Positions 51,990 through 63,117 of a DNA stretch of 64,000 nucleotides are shown in pieces. Position 1 is the stretch's first letter; every line of letters begins with the position of its first letter. Position numbers and translations under genes: made by a program. The stretch spans positions 1 to 64,000 of the forward strand of contig JAFQVJ010000041.1 of the NCBI GenBank assembly GCA_017408025.1, given 5' to 3'. The notes below the pieces were generated by a model, which saw only the letters and a program-made list of their open reading frames with translations, searched no databases and had not been told where the DNA came from. The DNA comes from Lachnospiraceae bacterium. Lineage in GTDB: Bacteria > Bacillota > Clostridia > Lachnospirales > Lachnospiraceae.

Positions 51990-52400
51990 CTATTCCTTCA
52001 CAATCTTAACTACAGTTGTTCCATTTGACGCCGGAACACTGAGAGAAAGCTTTCCAGAAAGATTTGTTGTCATGCTGCCGGCATTTACGCCATCAAGATA
52101 CATAACATACTCTGTGCTCTCCTCGAGCTCAACTGTAATCTGTGCATTCTGATCTGATTCCACCTCAAAGCTAACTCCACCATTCTCAACCTTGAAGCTA
52201 TTAACAGCTGTTCCTGGAACTGACTCATATACGAACAATCCATTCCTCTCAAGCTTTGTAATCTCCTTACATGTCTTAACCTTGTAGAGATCTCCCTTGA
52301 ATTCAAAATCAGATTTCTTTGACTTCTCCTCAAGCTTGTAATTACCAAAGCTGATTGTTCCGTTTTCTTCAATACGAATTAATTCCTCTACTACTGCCAT
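51990..52400 (-). CDS. Conserved Lachnospiraceae-type protein next to radA (136 aa)
   Basis: I recognise the sequence type from related Clostridia, where it is sometimes labelled endosialidase, a name not supported by its content. It begins MAVVEELIRIEENGTISFGN and contains DFEFKGDLYKVKTCKEITKL and an E-rich region that looks like two or three beta-sandwich repeats. There is no signal peptide or membrane segment, so it is cytoplasmic. It sits between clpC and radA on one transcript, so a role linked to stress or protein quality control is possible but unproven. Confidence 0.6.
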   Translation of the reverse strand: MAVVEELIRIEENGTISFGNYKLEEKSKKSDFEFKGDLYKVKTCKEITKLERNGLFVYESVPGTAVNSFKVENGGVSFEVESDQNAQITVELEESTEYVMYLDGVNAGSMTTNLSGKLSLSVPASNGTTVVKIVKE

Positions 52401-52491
52401 TTTTTTCTTCCTCCTATGTGATATTTATTGTTCAGTTAAATTTACAGTTCACACCTTATTTTAATTGTATCCACAATTATACTATATTAAA

Positions 52492-54954
52492 TTAAATTTT
52501 TCCACTGTTTTTTGTAAACTTCAGTTCATTGTCAGAATATGAAAGTTTAACATTGTCACCTCTTTTTATCTTTCCGGATAAAATCTCTTCTGCCAGTGGA
52601 TCCTCCACCTTACTTACAAGTGTTCTTCTAAGTGGTCTTGCACCATACTTCTTGTCATATCCATTATCAACAAGATACTTTTTAGCTGATGCTGTCACTG
52701 TCAATGTTATACTCATCTGCTCAAATATTCTGTTCTTGATTTCCTCAAGCATGATGCCTATAATCTTACCAATATCGTCCTTTGTCAATGCATGGAATAC
52801 TATAATATCATCAATTCTATTGAGAAACTCTGGCTTGAACAAATTCTTAAGTTCCTCCATCACATTGCTCTTCATGGTCTCGTAGTCAGCCTTTTCATCC
52901 TCTACAGCACCAAATCCCAATTTCTTTGGTTCCATAATTCTGGATGCACCAGCATTTGATGTCATGATGATAATTGTATTTTTGAAATCTACTGTTCTTC
53001 CTTGCGAATCTGTAATACGACCATCATCCAATACCTGCAGTAATATATTAAATACATCAGGATGAGCTTTCTCTATCTCATCGAATAATATAACAGAATA
53101 TGGATTTCTACGAACCTTTTCACTGAGCTGTCCACCTTCTTCAAAGCCTACATATCCTGGAGGCGAACCTACCATTTTAGACACACTATGCTTCTCCATA
53201 TACTCTGACATATCGACTCTTATAATAGAATTTTCATCACCAAATACAGCTTCTGCAAGAGCCTTTGAAAGCTCTGTTTTACCTACACCTGTTGGACCTA
53301 AGAAAAGGAATGAACCTGTCGGACGCTTTGGATCTTTAAGACCTACTCTTCCTCTTCTTACAGCCTTAGCCACAGCTGAAACAGCCTCCGTCTGTCCTAT
53401 TACCCTCTTGTGAAGTATTTTTTCCAGCTTGGCTAGTCTCTGACCTTCGCCCTCTGAAAGCTTCTTAACAGGTATTTTTGTCCATCCTGATACAACGTCC
53501 GCTATATCATTTTCTGTAACCTCTACTTTCTTTGATGACTTAGCCTTATCCCATTTCTTTTTAAGGATGTCATGTCTCTCTTTAAGAGACGATTGTTTAT
53601 CCATAACCTCCTTTACATCTGCCATCTTTGATGCCATTAGAAGCTTTTCCTTTTCTTCCTCAAGCTGTGCTATTTCACTTTCCAGCTGTGCCATCTCTGC
53701 TGGTTTTGCAAGACCTCTTAATCCAACCTTTGCACCAGCCTCATCTAGCAAATCTATTGCTTTATCTGGCAGGAATCTGTCATTAATATATCTCACTGAC
53801 ATCTTCACAGCTGCCTTTACAGCCTCATCTGTGTATCTTAAATGATGATGTTCTTCATACTTTTCCTTCAATCCCTCAACGATAGCTATGGCCTCTTCTT
53901 CTGTAGGTTCATCCACCGTTACAGGCTGAAATCTTCTCTCTAAGGCAGCATCTTTTTCAAAATGCTTTCTAAATTCTGCAATAGTTGTGGCACCAATGAC
54001 CTGAAGTTCTCCTCTGGCAAGAGCTGGTTTTATGATGTTTGCCGCATCTAATGCGCCTTCTGCTCCACCTGCACCGATGATGGTATGAATCTCGTCTATA
54101 AAAAGTAAGACATTTCCCTGACTATGCACTTCTCCTAAAATTCTCTTGATTCGCTCCTCAAACTCACCTCTATACTTTGAGCCTGCAACCATTGCGGACA
54201 AATCAAGCATAAGCACACGTAGATTCTTAATTGTATCAGGAACCTCTTCATTTGCGATACGCGTAGCAAGTGCTTCTACTATAGCTGTTTTACCAACACC
54301 CGGTTCACCTATAAGACAAGGGTTATTCTTTGTTCTCCTTGAAAGTATCTGAATAACTCTCTGTATCTCGTTTTCTCTTCCTATGACAGGGTCCAGCGCT
54401 CCCTCCTTTGCAAGTAAGGTCAAATCACGGCTAAACTGATCAAGGGCTGGTGTAGCTGATTTGCTTTTTCCTTTGATAGGCTTTCCATTTTGGAAATCTT
54501 CCTTAACTTTGTTAGGATCCTGACCCATAGCAATGAGTATTTCCACATATAATTTCTGGAAATTGACTCCGAGAGTGTTGAGCAAACGTGGGGCTGCACA
54601 CTCCGTTTCTTTTAATATAGCTATAAGTATATGCTCTGTTCCTACAAGCTTAGATTTAAATCTAGCTGCTTCTCTTCCTGCTGCTTCAAGGAGTGCCTGT
54701 GCCTTTGGCGTAAATCCATCCGGCTCCGCCAAACCTATAGGACTCATAGGGTCAATATACTGCTCTATAAGGTCGACTAATTTGTCTGATGTGACCTTAA
54801 AATTGTTCAGAACAATTCCTGCAACACTATCCTCTGTCATAGCCAGACCAACAAGTAAATGCTCCGTTCCTATATAACTATGTTCTAAATTTACAGCCGT
54901 TTCATGAGCGTACTCAATAGCGGCCTTCGCTTTTTTTGTAAGTCGTTCCTGCAT
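52492..54954 (-). CDS. clpC: ATP-dependent Clp protease ATPase subunit ClpC (820 aa)
   Basis: Double-ring AAA+ unfoldase working with ClpP. Two Clp N-terminal repeats (about residues 1-145) precede D1, with Walker A GEPGVGKTAIVEALATRI and Walker B LLFIDEIHTIIGAGG, a coiled-coil middle domain (about 410-470), and D2 with GPTGVGKTELSKALAEA and VILFDEIEKAHPDV. The length matches ClpC rather than ClpB or ClpA. The usual ctsR-mcsA-mcsB genes do not precede it here; the next gene upstream is a cohesin protein. It is followed by the small conserved gene and radA. Confidence 0.95.
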   Translation of the reverse strand: MQERLTKKAKAAIEYAHETAVNLEHSYIGTEHLLVGLAMTEDSVAGIVLNNFKVTSDKLVDLIEQYIDPMSPIGLAEPDGFTPKAQALLEAAGREAARFKSKLVGTEHILIAILKETECAAPRLLNTLGVNFQKLYVEILIAMGQDPNKVKEDFQNGKPIKGKSKSATPALDQFSRDLTLLAKEGALDPVIGRENEIQRVIQILSRRTKNNPCLIGEPGVGKTAIVEALATRIANEEVPDTIKNLRVLMLDLSAMVAGSKYRGEFEERIKRILGEVHSQGNVLLFIDEIHTIIGAGGAEGALDAANIIKPALARGELQVIGATTIAEFRKHFEKDAALERRFQPVTVDEPTEEEAIAIVEGLKEKYEEHHHLRYTDEAVKAAVKMSVRYINDRFLPDKAIDLLDEAGAKVGLRGLAKPAEMAQLESEIAQLEEEKEKLLMASKMADVKEVMDKQSSLKERHDILKKKWDKAKSSKKVEVTENDIADVVSGWTKIPVKKLSEGEGQRLAKLEKILHKRVIGQTEAVSAVAKAVRRGRVGLKDPKRPTGSFLFLGPTGVGKTELSKALAEAVFGDENSIIRVDMSEYMEKHSVSKMVGSPPGYVGFEEGGQLSEKVRRNPYSVILFDEIEKAHPDVFNILLQVLDDGRITDSQGRTVDFKNTIIIMTSNAGASRIMEPKKLGFGAVEDEKADYETMKSNVMEELKNLFKPEFLNRIDDIIVFHALTKDDIGKIIGIMLEEIKNRIFEQMSITLTVTASAKKYLVDNGYDKKYGARPLRRTLVSKVEDPLAEEILSGKIKRGDNVKLSYSDNELKFTKNSGKI

Positions 54955-54972
54955 CTGTCTATACCTCTCTTA

Positions 54973-57333
54973 TTAGCCAAATAAATCGTCAAACAACTCG
55001 TCGATAACCATATCTAAATCATCAGCATTTATTGACGAATTCTTATCATCCATAATCTCAGCAACCTTCTTCTTCTTTTCCTCTGCTGTAATTTTTGAAT
55101 TTGACTCAACAGTTTCTTCCTGCTCAGCTGTTTCATCTGACTCAGATGTTTCTTCTGGCTCAGCTGCTTCTTCTGGCTTAGCAATTTCCTCTGGCTCAGC
55201 TGTTTCTTCTGGCTCAGCTGTTTCTTCTGGCTCAGCTGTTTCTTCTGGCTCAGCTGTTTCTTCTGGCTCAGTTGTTTCTTCTGGCTCAGCTGTTTCTTCT
55301 GGCTCAGCTGTTTCTTCTGGCTCAGTTGTTTTCTCAGGCTCTATCTCCTCTGCAAATTCAACATTTTCTATCTGAATTTCACTATAACTTTCTTCCTTAT
55401 CGTCCTCTATGATAGCCTCTACATCATTAGTAATAATGTCTTCAAAATCCATAAAAATGTCATCGAATTCATCTTGCTCATCATCAATTTGGGCGAACTC
55501 TTCTGATGTCACCTGAAGGTTACCCTCCTCAACTGACAATTCTGCCTCATTCTCATCTGTTGCTTCTTCTTCAACTGCGTCTGTAGTTTCGATTTCCTCT
55601 GGCTCAGTTTCTTCTGTTTCAGTTTCTTCTGTTTCAGTTTCTTCTGTTTCGATTTCCTCTGACTCAGTTTCTTCTGTTCCAGTTTCTTCTGTTTCGATTT
55701 CTTCTGACTCAATTTCCTCTGTTTCGATTTCTTCTGTTTCAGTTTCTTCTGTTTCGGTTTCTTCTGTTTCGGTTTCTTCTGTTTCAACTTCCTCTGGCTC
55801 AGTTTCCACCAAATCTAATTCTATTTCTTCATCTTTTATTTCTTCATCTTCTGTCTCACCGTTACCTTTTTTCTTACGTACTACAAGATAGATAATAATG
55901 CCCAAGTAGACAGCCGCCATAATACAACAGCCTAACGCAAGATATTTGTAGAACTGTATGCTACCCTTTTCCTCATTATTATTGTCAGCTTTCAACTGAT
56001 TTATATCATCTTTAAGCTTTTCATTTTGTGATAATAAGCTATTGTAGTCATCTACAGCCACACCTGCCTGCACAGCTATATCGAAATATCTTATAATCTG
56101 AGCTTCATTAACATCATAATAATACAAGCCCTTTTCACCATTCCAATTCATGGCATATATAAGATAGATACCTTCAACTTCACTATTTACCCAACCATCA
56201 AAAGTATCCTCTCCGATAGTAACAGAGCTTTCAGTGAAACCAGCTGGTATAATAATATCTTGTGGTGGCTTAACTATGGTATATAACTTCTGTGTTATCT
56301 GTACATTTGACATAGGATAAAATGTATCCGTGTCTTCCTCATAAATATATAATTGTCCTGCCGAACCATCACCCTTTGTGACGTACATAACGATAAGGTT
56401 TTTCACAAGGCCTTTAGCTGCAACTACAGTTTTATCCTTATAGTTGTATTCAAATGTCTCAAAGCCTTCTGGCAATGTAACTGCATCATTGATATCCTCA
56501 ATATAACTGTCAGTACCATCTATCTGAACTACAATTGGTTCAGGTGGAGGTGTTGTTGTCTCAGGTGCCTTTGCTACAGTAGTATATATAACATACTTTC
56601 TAGTACTGCCATCCTCTGCTGTAACTGTTATGGTTGTAGTATTATCACCTGGATCCATCTTTGTTCCACTGGCCTTAATGCTAGCTTTGCTATCTTCCTG
56701 ATTAGCTGATACAACCAGCTTTGTCACACCTTCAACAGCTTCTGCATAATACTTTGTCACATCCTTTGAAAATTTAGGTGACAAATCAAGTGAATATGTG
56801 GAGCCATCAGCTTTCACCGCCTCCACTTTCAAACTCGAAAGATAATTATTTGTGGATGCTACATAAGGTGCCTTAACAGTAACTGAACCTCCTGTTGCTG
56901 TTACACTCATGTTGTCCGCTGAATCAAAATCAATAATACCATTGTCTTCGCTTATAGATATATATTTAAGTGAAGATGTTCCCGGGCTCTTTGCCTTAAA
57001 TGTAACTTTTATTGTTGCTTCCTTCGAGACATCCGTGTTCTGCGCATAAGCCATGAGCTGTATTCTACCATTACCGCCACCTTCAAAGCCTGACACCGCC
57101 TCAATAACATTTGCATCATAATCAAGATAAAAATTATATGCACCTATGTTTGCGTCAGCCTTGACAGTGATAACTACCACAAACTCTTCTCCTTGCGTAA
57201 CCGTAGATGACGATATAGATACATTGGCACTTGCACCGTATACGGTTGTTCTCAGTACCAACACTGTCATAGCCACTAGCATTATCCCTAATATACTGTT
57301 CCATATTTTTTTATGTTTTGAATACATATTCAT
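54973..57333 (-). CDS. Membrane-anchored cohesin-domain protein with acidic cytoplasmic tail (786 aa)
   Basis: Signal segment (about residues 12-34), then a cohesin-type domain (about 35-155: ANVSISSSTVTQGEEFVVVI, then GAYNFYLDYDANVIEAVSGF), a cadherin-like beta-sandwich domain (about 160-253), an unrecognised region (260-420), a short coiled coil (425-455), one transmembrane helix (about 461-485) and a 300-residue tail of Glu/Thr/Pro repeats (ETEET, EPEETA) ending in VIDELFDDLFG. Cohesins bind dockerins, and the adjacent gene encodes one. By the positive-inside pattern (RKKKG after the helix) the tail should be cytoplasmic. It appears to be a membrane-bound receptor for a dockerin enzyme. 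The cohesin call is from fold landmarks and context. Confidence 0.8.
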   Translation of the reverse strand: MNMYSKHKKIWNSILGIMLVAMTVLVLRTTVYGASANVSISSSTVTQGEEFVVVITVKADANIGAYNFYLDYDANVIEAVSGFEGGGNGRIQLMAYAQNTDVSKEATIKVTFKAKSPGTSSLKYISISEDNGIIDFDSADNMSVTATGGSVTVKAPYVASTNNYLSSLKVEAVKADGSTYSLDLSPKFSKDVTKYYAEAVEGVTKLVVSANQEDSKASIKASGTKMDPGDNTTTITVTAEDGSTRKYVIYTTVAKAPETTTPPPEPIVVQIDGTDSYIEDINDAVTLPEGFETFEYNYKDKTVVAAKGLVKNLIVMYVTKGDGSAGQLYIYEEDTDTFYPMSNVQITQKLYTIVKPPQDIIIPAGFTESSVTIGEDTFDGWVNSEVEGIYLIYAMNWNGEKGLYYYDVNEAQIIRYFDIAVQAGVAVDDYNSLLSQNEKLKDDINQLKADNNNEEKGSIQFYKYLALGCCIMAAVYLGIIIYLVVRKKKGNGETEDEEIKDEEIELDLVETEPEEVETEETETEETETEETETEEIETEEIESEEIETEETGTEETESEEIETEETETEETETEETEPEEIETTDAVEEEATDENEAELSVEEGNLQVTSEEFAQIDDEQDEFDDIFMDFEDIITNDVEAIIEDDKEESYSEIQIENVEFAEEIEPEKTTEPEETAEPEETAEPEETTEPEETAEPEETAEPEETAEPEETAEPEEIAKPEEAAEPEETSESDETAEQEETVESNSKITAEEKKKKVAEIMDDKNSSINADDLDMVIDELFDDLFG
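55148..55340. repeat. 18-bp tandem repeats encoding EPEETA units
   Basis: About ten imperfect copies of the 18-bp unit CTCAGCTGTTTCTTCTGG on the plus strand, coding for Glu-Pro-Glu-Glu-Thr-Ala units on the minus strand. Length is always a multiple of three, so repeat gain or loss would keep the frame. Several adjacent units are identical, which suggests recent duplication. Confidence 0.88.
55596..55803. repeat. 15-bp tandem repeats encoding Glu/Thr units
   Basis: A second block of 15-bp repeats (TTTCTTCTGTTTCGG type on the plus strand) codes for EETET/EEIES units in the same acidic tail. The two blocks differ in unit length and composition, so they expanded separately. Confidence 0.85.
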
Positions 57334-57363
57334 ACTGTCTGTGTTCTCCTTTTTGTTCCCCTT

Positions 57364-59469
57364 CTAATTCTGTACTATAGTTGTCAGTCCCAATATCTGC
57401 TTTTGTAATATAAGCAAATCCTTAATGCTCAAATCTTTACCATCTCTATTTGTATCACCAGCATTGAGATAAATTCCTTCAAGCTTACTAACTCCCAGTA
57501 AATGCTTCTGTATAATAAGCAAGTCTTTTATATTGCTTGCTCCATCACCATTTACATCTCCATATATTACTACAGTGTAGCTATATACTACCTTTCCATT
57601 GATATCCTTTATGGTAATCTTATCGCCGGTAACCACCTTACCATCTGTCTTAGTTTTTCCTGAAACATCAGTAATTTCAATAGTTCCTCCTGTTACAGTG
57701 AATTTACCTTTTATATCAGCTACAGTACTTCCCGGTGCAATACCATTGACAGTACCTGCTGTATCATTTTTAGGCAATGTAGTCTGGACAGACAGCTGCG
57801 TACCTGTTGTAGGGTTCTGTGTCGTTCCTCCTGTGGTTGGTCCAGTCGTAGAACTGCCACCACTTGACGAACCAGCTGACTGTCTTACAACATCTATAGT
57901 GTACACTCTGGCAGAACCATTTTCTGCTGTAGCTGTGACTGTTATAGAGTTAGAGCCCTCCTTCAGCTGATGCACACCTGTTCCTGTCACCTTTGTAGTT
58001 CCTACAATAGCTGTAGCGTTCACCTCAACTGATGCCACATTATTAGGTACTACAAGAGAGTATTCCGTAGTAAATTTACTGAATGTAGGTGTGAGATTGT
58101 ATCCATTAACCGCAAGAGTAGACAAGCAATTATTTGGATTGCCATCACCTGTCGGCAACGGACAGGCTGTAGCTGGCATATTCTTGTAAACTGGTATCTT
58201 AAATACCAGTGGTGTTCCAGATTTTACATCAGCAGTATAAGCCTTTGCTGTTTTGTTTGCTTCTGTTGCATGGGCTTTAATATGAGTCATATACTGATGT
58301 GTATATGGCGTTCCAACATAGTCGAATTTCTTGTAGTACAAGGTATCCTGACCTATGTTTATGTAATTTTCTCCAAACATCTTTGCTCCGCCTATGAGAG
58401 CTTTATATCTTGTATTCCATGGCTGGAAATATTTTTCGTTTGTAGTTTTTGCAAATATAAGTCCATTGACAATAGCGCTATTGCCACTGTGAGCATATGC
58501 CTTCCAGTTATAATAATTATAATATCCTTCATAGCCTGACACAGTACCTGATATACTGCCACTTCCACCACTGTTTCCCATCTCTATAAGGATACTTGAT
58601 GCAAGGTAAAACGGACTGACACCAGACTTTTCGGCTGCTATCATCAATATATCTGCATAGTTTGAGTTTGCACCAGTGTCATCATTTTTCACAAGGTTTT
58701 TGCCTGCCTGCATGAATGTGCCCTTCAGTATCAGCTCCAGCTTATCTATTGTCTGAAACTGGCTCTGATATGACAATTGTTCAAACATCCATATGTACGT
58801 TTCATCAAGGAAATTTCTTGGGTCCATATAATATGCTACCAGCTCCTTTGATGCTGCACACCACGCTCCTCCATCAAAGGTATACCACTCTCCTGTATCC
58901 CAGTTATACGACTTAGGATCAAGAGATTTCCATGAGCTCTTGGCAGTTTTTGATATAAGACTTCGTCCTATTACATCTGCCTGATTATCCAATGCCACAT
59001 TCCAATCATAGGCAAGGTGATCAGCCACAAATACCCATTGCGGATACTGAGCGTGGAGCGTTCTCAAAGAATCCTTATAACTCTCCGGAAATCCCTGCCC
59101 ATTGAGATACGCCTCAAAATCCGCATCCGGTGTATACTCAACAACATCCTTTATATTGGATATATAGCTTGATGAAACGTAACCCGTTCCATCACCATAG
59201 TTAATCTGGTACCATAATGTACCATCAGAAGCGTTTCCCTCCCCCACGATTCTGACTACCTGACCTGCCGTCAGAGAACCAATCTTAGAATATGATGTTC
59301 CTGGTCCACTTCGTACGTTAAGCGAATCGTCTACATTAACTACTCCTGTCTTTTCGGTGTATCCATATACCTCCCCGTATCTGAATACAATACCTGAAAA
59401 AGAGCACGCAATGAGCACTATACACATAACAACGCACGTTATCAATTGTCTCTTCTCCTTATTAATCAT
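57364..59469 (-). CDS. Dockerin-bearing SH3b/glucosaminidase wall hydrolase (701 aa)
   Basis: Secreted protein. A signal segment (about 8-36) is followed by a bacterial SH3 domain (42-105, DDSLNVRSGPGTSYSKIGSL), a glucosaminidase-type domain (about 115-405, with Glu296 in ASSILIEMGNSGGSGS as a probable catalytic acid), a cadherin-like beta-sandwich (445-530), a Gly/Ser/Thr linker and a C-terminal type I dockerin (636-696). The dockerin has two calcium repeats, DVNGDGASNIKDLLIIQKHL and DTNRDGKDLSIKDLLILQKQ. It likely cuts peptidoglycan and docks to the cohesin protein encoded next to it. Both share the cadherin-like fold. A dockerin on a wall hydrolase is unusual outside cellulosome systems. 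Confidence 0.85.
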   Translation of the reverse strand: MINKEKRQLITCVVMCIVLIACSFSGIVFRYGEVYGYTEKTGVVNVDDSLNVRSGPGTSYSKIGSLTAGQVVRIVGEGNASDGTLWYQINYGDGTGYVSSSYISNIKDVVEYTPDADFEAYLNGQGFPESYKDSLRTLHAQYPQWVFVADHLAYDWNVALDNQADVIGRSLISKTAKSSWKSLDPKSYNWDTGEWYTFDGGAWCAASKELVAYYMDPRNFLDETYIWMFEQLSYQSQFQTIDKLELILKGTFMQAGKNLVKNDDTGANSNYADILMIAAEKSGVSPFYLASSILIEMGNSGGSGSISGTVSGYEGYYNYYNWKAYAHSGNSAIVNGLIFAKTTNEKYFQPWNTRYKALIGGAKMFGENYINIGQDTLYYKKFDYVGTPYTHQYMTHIKAHATEANKTAKAYTADVKSGTPLVFKIPVYKNMPATACPLPTGDGNPNNCLSTLAVNGYNLTPTFSKFTTEYSLVVPNNVASVEVNATAIVGTTKVTGTGVHQLKEGSNSITVTATAENGSARVYTIDVVRQSAGSSSGGSSTTGPTTGGTTQNPTTGTQLSVQTTLPKNDTAGTVNGIAPGSTVADIKGKFTVTGGTIEITDVSGKTKTDGKVVTGDKITIKDINGKVVYSYTVVIYGDVNGDGASNIKDLLIIQKHLLGVSKLEGIYLNAGDTNRDGKDLSIKDLLILQKQILGLTTIVQN

Positions 59470-59531
59470 TTGTTTTCCCTTCTTATCTTATTATTATGTA
59501 TTTACAATATTTACCATTATTTTCTCGAAGA

Positions 59532-59558
59532 GGCAGTGTAAATCACCTTCACACTGCC
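59532..59558 (-). other. Stem-loop after purD
   Basis: GGCAGTGT pairs with ACACTGCC across an 11-nt loop, 13 bp downstream of the purD stop codon on the minus strand. No clear T-run follows, so termination strength is uncertain. The dockerin gene lies beyond it with no clear promoter in the 62 bp between. Confidence 0.55.
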
Positions 59559-59571
59559 CCCTAGCTTAAAA

Positions 59572-60852
59572 TTACTTTACCGCATTATCTATAGCTTTAC
59601 CTATATCATTTCTCATGTACTTATTATCAAAGTCAATAAGCTTTGTGGCTTCATATGCATTAGCTCTGGCTGTCAGTAAATCATTTCCTGTCGCTACAAC
59701 GCCGAGAACACGTCCACCATTGGTCACTACCTTGTCACCATCAAGCTTCGTGCCTGCATGGAATACAAAATAGTCATCCTTGTCCTTGAAGATGTAAAGA
59801 ACCTTTATCTCAAAGCCCTTTTCATAGTGCTCTGGATATCCGTCTGAAGCAAGAACAACGCAAACAGCAGCATTATCTTCAAACTGAAGATCAATCTGAT
59901 CTAATGTGCCATCAATACATGCCTCAAATACTTCTACAATATCATTCTTCATACGTGGAAGTACTACCTGTGTCTCTGGATCACCAAATCTTGCATTGTA
60001 TTCAAGTACTCTAGGACCATCCTGTGTAAGCATCAGTCCAAAGAAAATAATTCCTTTGAATTCTCTGCCCTCTGCCTTCATAGCGTCAACTGTAGCCTGA
60101 TAGATATACTTCTTACAGAACTCATCTACCTCTGTTGTATAGAATGGACTTGGCGAGAATGTTCCCATACCACCTGTGTTTAAGCCCTCGTCGTTGTCCT
60201 TAGCACGTTTATGATCCTGTGCAGAGGTCATAAGCTTGATAGTCTTACCGTCTACAAACGAAAGAACAGAAACCTCACGTCCTGTCATAAACTGCTCAAT
60301 AACGATAGTATTTCCTGCTGAACCAAACTGCTTATCAAGCATAAGAGTCTTTACGCCAGCCTTCGCCTCTTCAAGAGTATTGCAGATAAGAACACCCTTA
60401 CCAAGAGCAAGACCATCAGCCTTCAATACTGTTGGGAATGTCGCCTTTGTCTCAAGATACTCTATTGCAGCTTCTGGAGATGAGAAGTTTTCGTATGTAG
60501 CTGTTGGAATATTGTACTTCTTCATCAAATCCTTTGAGAATGCCTTTGAGCCTTCAAGAATAGCTGCATTCTTTCTAGGTCCAAATACACGAAGTCCCTC
60601 TGCCTCGAAAGCATCAACAATACCACCAACAAGTGGATCATCCATACCTACTACAGTAAGGTCAATCTCTTTTTCCTTTGCAAATGCAACGAGCTTATCA
60701 AATTCCATTGCACCGATTGGCACACACTCTGCAACCTCTGCAATACCTGCGTTACCAGGTGCACAATATATTTTTTCAACCTTTGGGCTCTTTGCGACCT
60801 TCCATGCTATAGCATGTTCTCTACCGCCGCCACCTACGATTAATACTTTCAT
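59572..60852 (-). CDS. purD: Phosphoribosylamine-glycine ligase (426 aa)
   Basis: ATP-grasp enzyme of purine synthesis: phosphoribosylamine plus glycine gives GAR. The N-terminal MKVLIVGGGGREHAIAWKVA is the family signature; ATP-grasp landmarks are PTVLKADGLALGKGVLICNT and RFGDPETQVVLPRM. The length is normal. It is the last gene of the operon purE-purM-purN-purD. Its product GAR is the substrate of PurN, encoded just upstream. Confidence 0.96.
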   Translation of the reverse strand: MKVLIVGGGGREHAIAWKVAKSPKVEKIYCAPGNAGIAEVAECVPIGAMEFDKLVAFAKEKEIDLTVVGMDDPLVGGIVDAFEAEGLRVFGPRKNAAILEGSKAFSKDLMKKYNIPTATYENFSSPEAAIEYLETKATFPTVLKADGLALGKGVLICNTLEEAKAGVKTLMLDKQFGSAGNTIVIEQFMTGREVSVLSFVDGKTIKLMTSAQDHKRAKDNDEGLNTGGMGTFSPSPFYTTEVDEFCKKYIYQATVDAMKAEGREFKGIIFFGLMLTQDGPRVLEYNARFGDPETQVVLPRMKNDIVEVFEACIDGTLDQIDLQFEDNAAVCVVLASDGYPEHYEKGFEIKVLYIFKDKDDYFVFHAGTKLDGDKVVTNGGRVLGVVATGNDLLTARANAYEATKLIDFDNKYMRNDIGKAIDNAVK

Positions 60853-60892
60853 CTGTATCTCCTTACAAATCTGTTATTATATAATCTTTGAT

Positions 60893-61522
60893 TTACTTAG
60901 TCACAACTACGTGATTATTAGCATCAATGGTTATTCTACCATTAGCGATATCATCTATAGCCTTTGGCATGATAATCCACTCAGCCTGCTCCATTACTCT
61001 CTGCTGAAGAGACTTTGGAGTATCATCTGGTAACACTTCCACTGTCTTCTGATAGATAATAGGACCTGTATCTGTTCCTGCATCTACAAAATGACATGTT
61101 GCACCTGTCACCTTTACGCCTCTCTCAAGGGCCGCCTCATGAACCTTAAGACCATAATATCCTGTACCACAGAATGCTGGTATAAGTGAAGGATGGATGT
61201 TGATAATCTTTCCTTCATACTTGCCTATAAGCTTTTCCGGAAGCACAACAAGACATCCCGCAAGAACTATCAAATCCACATGATACTCATCAATCTTAGC
61301 TATAAGCGCATCATTGAAAAGCTCCCTGCTCTCATAATCCTTTGGTGACACACATACACCATCTATCCCCGCTAATTTAGCTCTATCAAGAGCATATGCG
61401 TTCTTGTTGTTACTGATAACAACCGCTATCTCTGTATTTGTAATCTTTCCATTACCGATAGCATCTATAATAGCCTGGAGGTTTGTTCCACCTCCAGACA
61501 CAAGTACCGCTATTCTTAGCAT
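60893..61522 (-). CDS. purN: Phosphoribosylglycinamide formyltransferase PurN (209 aa)
   Basis: Folate-dependent enzyme that formylates GAR. Landmarks are [20 protein letters not shown], the catalytic Asn-x-His in [19 protein letters not shown], and the Asp in [10 protein letters not shown]. Length is standard. It overlaps purM by 7 bp and precedes purD by 40 bp. Confidence 0.96.
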
Positions 61523-62547
61523 AATGTAACTCCCTTTTCACCTGCTTCAACGTGACCTACTACAAAAGCTTTATCGCCTGCAGACTGAATAGCCTTGATT
61601 ACAGTATCTACGTCCTCTTTATTTACCGCTATCACCATACCAAGTCCCATATTGAATGTGTTATACATCATTTCTTCTGCGATGTCGCCCTTCTTCTGCA
61701 TCATCTTAAAGATAGCAGGCACTTCGTAGGAATCCTTCTTAACAACAGCTCTTGCACCTTCCGGAAGCATTCTTGGTATATTCTCATAGAATCCACCACC
61801 TGTGATATGACTACATCCGTTAATCTTCACACCAGCTTCCTTAATAGCCTTAAGCGCTTTAACGTAGATTCTTGTTGGCTCGATTAATGCCTCTCCGAGA
61901 GTCTTTCCTAACTCGTCGTAATATGTATTTAATCCTTCTTTTGTAAGTTCCTTTTCAAACACCTTTCTAACAAGTGAGAAACCGTTGCTATGAACACCTG
62001 AAGAGGCAATACCTACAAGTGTATCTCCTGCCTTAATATTTTCGCCTGTGATAATATCCTTCTTGTCTGCAACACCTACAGCAAAACCTGCTAAATCATA
62101 GTCATCCTCTGGCATAAGTCCTGGATGCTCTGCTGTCTCGCCACCGATTAAAGCGCACTCAGACTGTCTGCAGCCCTCTGCCACACCACTTACAATAGTT
62201 GCAATCTTCTCTGGAATATTCTTGCCACATGCAATATAATCAAGGAAGAACAATGGTTCGCCACCTGCACATGCAACATCATTTACACACATAGCCACGG
62301 CATCAATGCCGATTGTATCATGCTTGTCCATGATAAATGCAAGCTTCACCTTTGTGCCACATCCATCTGTTCCAGATAATAATACCGGCTCTTCCATCTC
62401 TTTAATCTTAGCCAATGAAAATGCTCCTGAAAATCCACCAAGACCACCTAACACTTCAGGTCTCATAGTCTTCTTAACATGCTCCTTCATAAGCTCCACT
62501 GACTTGTAACCAGCCTCAATATCTACTCCGGCTTTCTTGTAATCCAT
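61516..62547 (-). CDS. purM: Phosphoribosylformylglycinamidine cyclo-ligase (343 aa)
   Basis: Closes the imidazole ring to give aminoimidazole ribotide. The PurM fold is recognised by [55 protein letters not shown] and [16 protein letters not shown]. Standard length. It overlaps purN, so the two are probably translationally coupled. Confidence 0.96.
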
Positions 62548-62610
62548 TTTGTTCTCCTCCGTAATCTTACTCTTTTATTCAATTCAGGTTAATTTCTGTT
62601 CCCCTGAACA

Positions 62611-63117
62611 TTAATTCATATAATTTTTATATCCAACTTTTTCAAGCTTTTCAGCCTTAGCCACAACCTTTTCCTTCATGCCTTCCTTGTATACCTTAAG
62701 CTTCTCCAAAAGCTCTGGGTCATTCATAGCAAGCATTTTTGCTGCCAGAATTCCAGCATTCTGTCCACCGTTAATTGCAACTGTTGCCACTGGGATACCT
62801 GAAGGCATCTGAACGATAGAGTAAAGAGAATCAACTCCACCAAGTGACTTTGTATAGATAGGAACTCCTATAACTGGTAATGGGAATATAGCTGCTGCCA
62901 TTCCTGGAAGATGAGCGGCACCACCTGCACCAGCAATAATAACCTTAATACCCTTGCTCTCTGCTGATGTAGCATAATCATAGAAAATATCTGGCATTCT
63001 ATGCGCTGAGATAATAGTCATCTCGTAATCAATACCAAACTCCTCAAGGACCTCTGCAGCCTTGCTCATAACATCAAGATCTGAATCACTGCCCATTATA
63101 ATACCTACTTTTGCCAT
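62611..63117 (-). CDS. purE: N5-carboxyaminoimidazole ribonucleotide mutase (168 aa)
   Basis: Rearranges N5-CAIR to CAIR in purine synthesis (class I PurE). Landmarks are KVGIIMGSDSDLDVMSKAAE, TIISAHRMPDIFYDYA and GVPIYTKSLGGVDSLYSIVQ, with the catalytic His in SAHRMP. The frame extends to 63159, but GGAGG lies 5 bp before the ATG at 63117. No purK gene is in the window, so how N5-CAIR forms is not visible here. First gene of the operon. Confidence 0.95.
   Translation of the reverse strand: MAKVGIIMGSDSDLDVMSKAAEVLEEFGIDYEMTIISAHRMPDIFYDYATSAESKGIKVIIAGAGGAAHLPGMAAAIFPLPVIGVPIYTKSLGGVDSLYSIVQMPSGIPVATVAINGGQNAGILAAKMLAMNDPELLEKLKVYKEGMKEKVVAKAEKLEKVGYKNYMN

Follow-up and report, generated by a model that had tools for sequence, protein, structure and literature searches.

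What does a dockerin do on an enzyme that is predicted to cut the cell's own wall? The question is raised by two adjacent genes in a stretch of 64,000 nucleotides, here called the window, from a Lachnospiraceae bacterium (assembly GCA_017408025.1, contig JAFQVJ010000041.1, positions 1 to 64,000 of the forward strand). One gene encodes P0002, a putative peptidoglycan glucosaminidase that ends in a dockerin, and the other encodes P0001, a membrane protein that carries a cohesin. We consider it likely that the two form a wall-remodelling module, in which a calcium-dependent, non-cellulosomal tether holds the glucosaminidase at the membrane. This reading draws on observations of domain content and gene neighbourhood, of symmetry between the dockerin halves, and of co-divergence between dockerin and cohesin.

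The enzyme and its membrane partner

The earlier note on this DNA described adjacent same-strand genes for a dockerin-bearing wall hydrolase and a membrane cohesin, the first fusing its dockerin to SH3b and glucosaminidase domains, the second having a signal peptide, cohesin and cadherin-like domains and one transmembrane helix. This description holds. Both open reading frames are complete, lie on the minus strand 30 bp apart with the enzyme gene upstream (Table 1), and contain the expected domains, as judged from PF00404, SH3_3 and SagB/Atl matches on P0002 and from Pfam matches and hydropathy on P0001.

P0002 begins with a hydrophobic signal, read from the N-terminal sequence and a hydropathy scan, as were all signal peptides in this work. 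Its assignment as a glucosaminidase rests on matches to the NCBIfam SagB model (1.3e-10) and to the Atl glucosaminidase structure 6fxo in the PDB (3.4e-11), because the Pfam Glucosaminidase family PF01832 is not listed in a Pfam scan of the protein. The SagB score of 41 bits is far under the cut-off of 425 and places P0002 outside the SagB family. Residue E296 is invariant among 13 aligned orthologues and aligns in Atl (6fxo) with the Glu of the sequence LLETGNG, so that P0002 has the Glu of the LLExG segment that marks LYZ2/Atl-type enzymes; we take this Glu of Atl to be catalytic. The dockerin passes the PF00404 cut-off, its two calcium F-hand repeats are visible in the sequence, and its two recognition helices are nearly identical (NIKDLLIIQKHLL / SIKDLLILQKQIL).

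From its N-terminus, P0001 has a signal peptide followed by cohesin and cadherin-like domains and a third ectodomain region; a single transmembrane helix then leads to an acidic tail. Scanned alone, residues 34-156 match PF00963 with 32.7 bits (cut-off 24.1), and the genome search gave 29.8 bits; when the whole chain is scanned the family is not listed at E values up to 1. Cohesins of acidic-tailed proteins such as P0001 may thus escape annotation pipelines, since Pfam lists the domain when it is scanned alone and not within the whole chain. The cadherin-like domain behaves similarly under PF12733, with 28.2 bits as a fragment and 21.8 bits, under the cut-off of 24.2, in the whole chain. The cohesin fold is a nine-stranded jelly-roll. 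Against the PDB, the P0001 domain alone gives weak matches to solved cohesins (1g1k, E 0.0025; 2vn5, 0.0051), whereas with a profile built from 56 N-terminal domains of orthologues the top 17 rows are all cohesin entries (3l8q, 2.8e-15), including NagJ entries that we take to be cohesin modules. The rows that follow are antibody light chains, drawn in by signal-peptide columns.

Recurrence of the pair in relatives

In a family sample of 150 genera (genomes at least 90% complete, E 0.001), a cohesin was found in 63 genomes, a dockerin in 55 and both in 41 (odds ratio 9.7, p 8e-10). Among 61 relatives searched at E 0.01, 26 have a cohesin and 24 a dockerin; both occur in 21, only a dockerin in 3, only a cohesin in 5 and neither in 32. 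Pfam understates the pairing, because a more sensitive profile recovered a partner in 7 of 13 genomes (of 14) that were read for having a dockerin and no Pfam cohesin; topology identified one in another, G149.

A tblastn search of named genomes with a dockerin-bearing query gave at least 564 relatives, the best 80 of which were taken as loci and therefore lean towards dockerin-bearing rows. These loci contain 81 glucosaminidase genes, 58 with a dockerin and 23 without. A cohesin-profile partner lies within two genes of 52 of the 58 dockerin enzymes, 4 have only a neighbour of like topology, and 2 have none. Pfam Cohesin is detected at E 0.01 in 40 of 56 neighbour domains of dockerin-bearing pairs. 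Of 76 enzyme-partner rows, 67 have the partner gene immediately downstream of the enzyme gene on the same strand, and six have it in divergent orientation (L093, L094, L095, L099, L119 and L145); the listed partner of L149 is upstream and itself bears a dockerin, and the partners of L118 and of one L148 enzyme are two genes off. Five of the 81 enzymes have no partner (L123 and L130, both Ruminococcus albus, and L127, L142 and L156). The pair occurs in the setting of purine genes and clpC that surrounds it in the window, and in other neighbourhoods too. Since the adjacency recurs in many genera, these sequences confirm that the pairing exceeds chance and reaches past the source window.

The same surveys bear on whether the pair could be a remnant or minimal cellulosome, with a cohesin that displays dockerin enzymes acting on plant polysaccharides and the glucosaminidase as an incidental passenger. 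Such an arrangement would suit the 10 of 55 dockerin-bearing genomes of the 150-genus sample that have 5-27 dockerins among the matches listed, the basis of all dockerin tallies per genome in this sample. However, 36 of the 55 have exactly one dockerin, and in 22 of these the loci that we read place it on a P0002-type glucosaminidase with an adjoining membrane partner (recognised by topology only in G149; G145 was read via L122, which has the same match coordinates). No carbohydrate-binding module is listed in domain scans of P0001. The source genome has one dockerin and one cohesin over the cut-off, located on a glucosaminidase and on a single-cohesin protein, and so lacks the multi-cohesin scaffoldin, carbohydrate-binding module and many dockerin-bearing carbohydrate-active enzymes of a cellulosome. 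With a single dockerin and a glucosaminidase as its cargo, the cellulosome reading was rejected; we regard it as very improbable.

Half symmetry of the dockerin and its co-divergence with the cohesin

Over 13 helix columns, the halves of a dockerin are 73% identical within a protein versus 30% between dockerins, a difference reached in 0 of 20000 permutations. The test started from 68 dockerins, was reduced to 65 by leaving out L123, L130 and L149 by hand, and used the 53 that are non-redundant. Half symmetry is the known dual-binding signature of dockerins, and either half of the P0002 dockerin could probably contact the cohesin. Recognition residues are numbered 11, 12, 18 and 19 in an excerpt of PMC4728124, and 10, 11, 17 and 18 in another numbering in an excerpt of PMC4081043; by their position relative to the calcium loop, we matched them to helix columns 2, 3, 9 and 10. 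Identity within proteins and across them at these columns is 0.81/0.14, 0.66/0.11, 0.87/0.20 and 0.89/0.31, respectively. Column 6 is equally symmetric (0.91/0.24), which indicates that half symmetry extends past the recognition positions.

Distances between dockerin helices follow those between partner cohesins (r 0.58 for 53 loci, 0.52 for 42 loci) more closely than those between the catalytic domains of the same enzymes (0.31 and 0.35, respectively) or the third domains of the partners (0.40). The partial correlation between dockerin and cohesin is 0.52 (0 of 2000 permutations). When the comparison is restricted to pairs whose catalytic domains have diverged, a clear positive correlation with the dockerin persists for the cohesin only (0.24), with a regression weight of 0.30 (0 of 2000 permutations; jackknife 0.25-0.31). 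The partial correlation falls to 0.36 (0 of 5000) in a set thinned to 33 rows, and to 0.27 (1 of 5000) when the two remaining divergently oriented rows are removed as well. The 53 loci were obtained by leaving out L149, L160 and L135 by hand and dropping rows that lack an aligned partner; the 42 loci are those of the 53 that are present in the partner alignment, which excluded L118, L135, L147, L160 and the six divergent partners.

Cohesins as a family bind dockerins tightly and in a calcium-dependent manner. Dockerin symmetry and dockerin-cohesin co-divergence together make it very likely that the P0002 dockerin binds the P0001 cohesin, and the sequences argue for it strongly. The single dockerin and the conserved adjacency agree, with these two results, with the suggestion of the earlier note that this is a private, non-cellulosomal pair whose cargo is a wall hydrolase. 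Its appeal to the shared cadherin-like fold as a sign of co-evolution has to be given up, because, of the domains compared, the cadherin-like ones follow the dockerin least closely in their divergence (r 0.20 for that of the partner, 0.11 for that of the enzyme itself).

Observations that weigh against docking

Several observations weigh against a tether that depends on the dockerin. In the co-divergence comparison, the four recognition positions give a correlation of 0.45 and the other eight helix positions 0.49, so that the co-divergence extends past the recognition positions. Part of the half symmetry could stem from recent internal duplication in each lineage. Fourteen of the 36 single-dockerin genomes are without a demonstrated P0002/P0001-type arrangement, nine of them read (G016, G020, G125, G128, G185, G191, G205, G209 and G227, with G191 and G209 read at the cohesin locus only) and five unread (G141, G186, G210, G231 and G234). 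The two R. albus loci have a dockerin enzyme and no adjoining partner gene; an excerpt of PMC4081043 describes this species as cohesin-poor. The source genome encodes a second membrane cohesin-like domain, fused to an ABC ATPase and described below, that is a potential competitor for the dockerin, and the genome search detected no dockerin in G028, which has a fusion of the same kind. Finally, 20 of the 23 glucosaminidases that lack a dockerin still adjoin a cohesin-profile membrane neighbour, and in 13 of 19 searched genomes with such an enzyme no dockerin was found anywhere at E 0.01. That search covered 42 of the 80 loci and 19 of the 23 dockerin-less ones, with L127, L140, L142 and L148 left out.

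The dockerin-less enzymes often share the purine-gene and clpC setting, and since they have the same neighbour, we rejected adjacency as sufficient proof of docking. The N-terminal domains of their neighbours are still cohesin-like (Pfam Cohesin at E 0.01 in 11 of 19; PDB profile match to 3l8q, 2.2e-10). The C-terminal part of the third ectodomain region is conserved in alignments of partners of dockerin-bearing and dockerin-less enzymes alike. One partner alignment excluded L148. A dockerin-bearing enzyme has the same partner as L148, and that partner was tallied under both states. A tree of 91 glucosaminidase domains, made by a quick method, requires the dockerin state to have changed at least four times; the dockerin-less rows fall into two clades, of 16 and 5 rows, and the single rows L142 and L148. 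On this tree, read without a fixed root, an ancestral dockerin with later losses is plausible.

Because dockerin-less enzymes keep the cohesin-like neighbour, the membrane protein would have a role that is independent of the dockerin, or would bind something else there. The contact could be made by the catalytic or cadherin-like domain, or through a shared polymer ligand, with the cohesin-like region serving as a general ectodomain and the dockerin as a reinforcement that is added or lost. However, the symmetry and co-divergence of the dockerin would be unexpected if its contact were idle, and we consider this account possible but clearly the less probable one. It is compatible with the dockerin-cohesin tether, as a second contact.

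Two loci show other combinations. L081 (5414-9474, genome G016) has a dockerin-less glucosaminidase adjoining a cohesin-like gene near clpC, and the one dockerin match of that genome is on a CBM26 protein elsewhere. L156 has a glucosaminidase with neither dockerin nor partner, in a genome with adjoining dockerin and cohesin matches elsewhere (G077:C19:52133-52717).

Cytoplasmic tails and anchoring

The earlier note raised transmembrane signalling, in which docking or release of the enzyme would be sensed and relayed through the acidic tail. P0001 does have a tail of 297 residues, and partners of dockerin enzymes have a tail of at least 25 residues more often (37 of 50) than partners of dockerin-less enzymes do (5 of 18), which makes a role for the tail possible in part of the family. 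In nine of 69 complete tails (L082, L097, L104, L105, L109, L112, L116, L141 and L146), the C-terminus is an acidic-hydrophobic motif, for example DLEFIDL or DFEFEFIDI, which may serve in cytoplasmic docking. Across partners, however, the tail varies from 4 to 576 residues. It is shorter than 25 residues in 26 of the 68 complete partners: 13 of the 50 beside dockerin enzymes and 13 of the 18 beside dockerin-less ones. All six divergent partners end in an NPxT- or SDTG-type motif (NPQT, NPNT, NPKTG or SDTG-like), a hydrophobic stretch and a short end, which we take to be a sortase signal; these six are probably sortase-anchored rather than membrane-anchored. With tails this variable in length, signalling is disfavoured as the general role, and we think it improbable as the explanation of the pair.

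A second cohesin-like domain in the source genome

The source assembly comprises 2.35 Mb in 71 contigs and is about 91% complete. The genome search suggested by the earlier note gave a divided result: within this assembly the dockerin of P0002 is the only recognisable one, and a second, weaker cohesin-type match besides P0001, itself the only match over the Pfam cut-off, is present on contig C71. This match (L062, 16607-18535) has 21.7 bits, under the PF00963 cut-off, and belongs to a protein of 642 residues with a signal peptide, the cohesin-like domain at 39-122, a transmembrane helix and a cytoplasmic ABC ATPase (ABC_tran, 78.5 bits). The gene lies directly downstream of an ABC2_membrane permease gene, and its product is 28.6% identical to P0001 in the N-terminal region. 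A similar chain with a signal peptide, beside an ABC2_membrane permease gene, was seen in G028 (L209, 3153-4739). The ATPase parts of the two fusions, which come from two genera, are 68% identical. The fusion was looked for in 15 loci retained from the search.

The architecture of L062, its place after the permease gene and its likeness to P0001 would fit a dockerin that mainly serves this fusion and brings the hydrolase to an ABC-2 exporter. The under-cut-off score and the fusion in G028, where no dockerin was detected, speak against this, and we consider it somewhat less probable still than signalling. A broader and tentative idea, which we think rather unlikely to hold, is that Clostridia have in membrane cohesins an old device for building the envelope rather than a cellulosome by-product, one that holds wall hydrolases at the membrane and is built into a wall-polymer exporter (the cohesin, transmembrane helix and ABC ATPase fusion of two genera). 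If this were true, peptidoglycan cutting and wall-polymer export could meet at one site, and cohesin-dockerin pairing in gut Lachnospirales would mostly be for the cell's own wall.

Gene layout and other cargo

The features of the two genes are collected in Table 1. The Clp ATPase gene that follows P0001, clpC, encodes AAA and Clp_N domains, and upstream of the pair are purine genes (GARS, formyl transferase, AIRS and AIRC). No terminator-like sites were found on the minus strand between 52300 and 59900, which is weak evidence consistent with co-transcription of the P0002 and P0001 genes. An Rfam search of 52000-63000 gave no matches.

Table 1. Positions of the two genes and their domains in the window
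Feature	Coordinates	Strand	Basis
Dockerin-bearing wall glucosaminidase gene, P0002, 701 aa	57364..59469	-	Open reading frame, domain and PDB searches
SH3b domain, P0002 residues 48-104	59158..59328	-	PF08239 (SH3_3) 61.3 bits, E 1e-16; PDB 2kt8 1.4e-11
SagB/Atl/LYZ2-like glucosaminidase domain, P0002 residues 200-430	58180..58872	-	NCBIfam SagB, PDB 6fxo
Cadherin-like domain, P0002 residues 452-530	57880..58116	-	PF12733 32.4 bits
Type I dockerin, P0002 residues 636-693	57391..57564	-	PF00404 (Dockerin_1) 37.4 bits, cut-off 22.9
Membrane cohesin gene, P0001, 786 aa	54973..57333	-	Start 30 bp after glucosaminidase gene, end 18 bp before clpC
Cohesin domain, P0001 residues 37-153	56875..57225	-	PF00963 29.8-32.7 bits; PDB profile search
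Cadherin-like domain, P0001 residues ~181-251	56581..56793	-	PF12733
Third ectodomain region, unnamed, P0001 residues ~268-420	56074..56532	-	Partner alignments
Transmembrane helix, P0001 residues 461-486	55876..55953	-	Hydropathy
Acidic Glu/Thr/Pro-rich cytoplasmic tail, 297 residues, 46% Asp+Glu	54976..55866	-	Sequence composition

Membrane cohesins of this kind also adjoin other dockerin proteins. In G185, a glucosaminidase of a different type (PF01832, 63.6 bits; unmatched by the P0002-type profile) has a dockerin and lies beside the same kind of membrane cohesin, which speaks for the tether. Within the source genus, a second dockerin cargo is a papain-family protease with a lectin-like domain (L064, 5824-11722; L069, 5202-10388; L066, 5650-9513); it adjoins a membrane cohesin over the cut-off in L064 and L069, and the cohesin match of the L066 genome (G002) is on another contig. 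L078 (5849-7170, G025) encodes a small dockerin protein with a weak, under-cut-off FIVAR match, followed by a short protein with a cohesin and a transmembrane helix, beside a GH127 gene. The glucosaminidases of L104, titled Muribaculaceae, and of L082, titled Thermoflexaceae, group with Lachnospiraceae rows, and these contigs are likely mislabelled or contaminated contigs of metagenome-assembled genomes.

A model for the pair

In the tether that we favour, P0002 would be exported and fold with calcium, and is predicted to cut the glycan strands of peptidoglycan, with an SH3b domain that is probably wall-binding. Its C-terminal calcium dockerin would plug into the cohesin of P0001, which would keep the enzyme near the membrane, the site of new wall synthesis, and so confine its action to the wall there. 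Judging from enzyme family and topology, P0002 may cut newly made strands at the membrane, much as SagB does together with SpdC.

Comparison with known systems

Cohesin-dockerin pairs, non-cellulosomal ones included, are already known. Like the type I pairs of cellulosomes such as that of Clostridium thermocellum (excerpt of PMC4728124), P0002 has a duplicated calcium F-hand dockerin with near-identical halves, and P0001 has a cohesin that both Pfam and profile matches to known cohesin structures identify. Unlike those pairs, the present one places a single cohesin on a protein that spans the membrane once, often includes the one dockerin of its genome, and has a peptidoglycan glucosaminidase as cargo in place of a plant-wall enzyme. 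ScaE of Ruminococcus flavefaciens is likewise a single cohesin anchored at the cell surface; according to an excerpt of PMC2930009 it is sortase-anchored and takes up a whole cellulosome through the dockerin of ScaB, in both of which P0001 differs. Pairwise single cohesins and dockerins outside the cellulosome also occur in the glycoside-hydrolase modules of Clostridium perfringens and Akkermansia (excerpt of PMC12997984). Those modules are on secreted glycan-degrading enzymes, whereas here they are on a membrane protein and a wall hydrolase that are encoded side by side. In the open-licence literature, a scope outside which the main review of non-cellulosomal modules falls, we found no dockerin-bearing peptidoglycan hydrolase paired with a membrane cohesin.

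An excerpt of PMC12997984 takes a cohesin and a dockerin in one genome as a cellulosome-like sign, present in 4333 of 289,232 gut genomes. Such a reading can mislead, because in the present family sample the dockerin of 22 of 36 single-dockerin genomes is carried by a wall glucosaminidase that adjoins its membrane partner. The pair suggests that the famous connector of the cellulosome also serves the bacterium's own wall, and it recurs in many gut Clostridia. The specificity of the plug appears to differ between species and is directly testable.

The nearest functional parallel is the SagB-SpdC complex of Staphylococcus aureus, in which, as described in an excerpt of PMC10581084, nascent strands are cut by a glucosaminidase that is oriented by a membrane protein, and the complex is proposed to free these strands from the membrane. 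In both cases a glucosaminidase, that of P0002 being distantly similar to SagB, is held by a membrane protein. The means differ: in the same excerpt, SpdC is a CAAX-protease homologue, SagB is membrane-associated and no cohesin or dockerin is described, and P0001 is not an integral membrane partner of the SpdC type, having one internal transmembrane helix and a cohesin. Set beside SagB-SpdC, the pair is a tractable system in which to study how a Gram-positive bacterium positions a dangerous wall-cutting enzyme.

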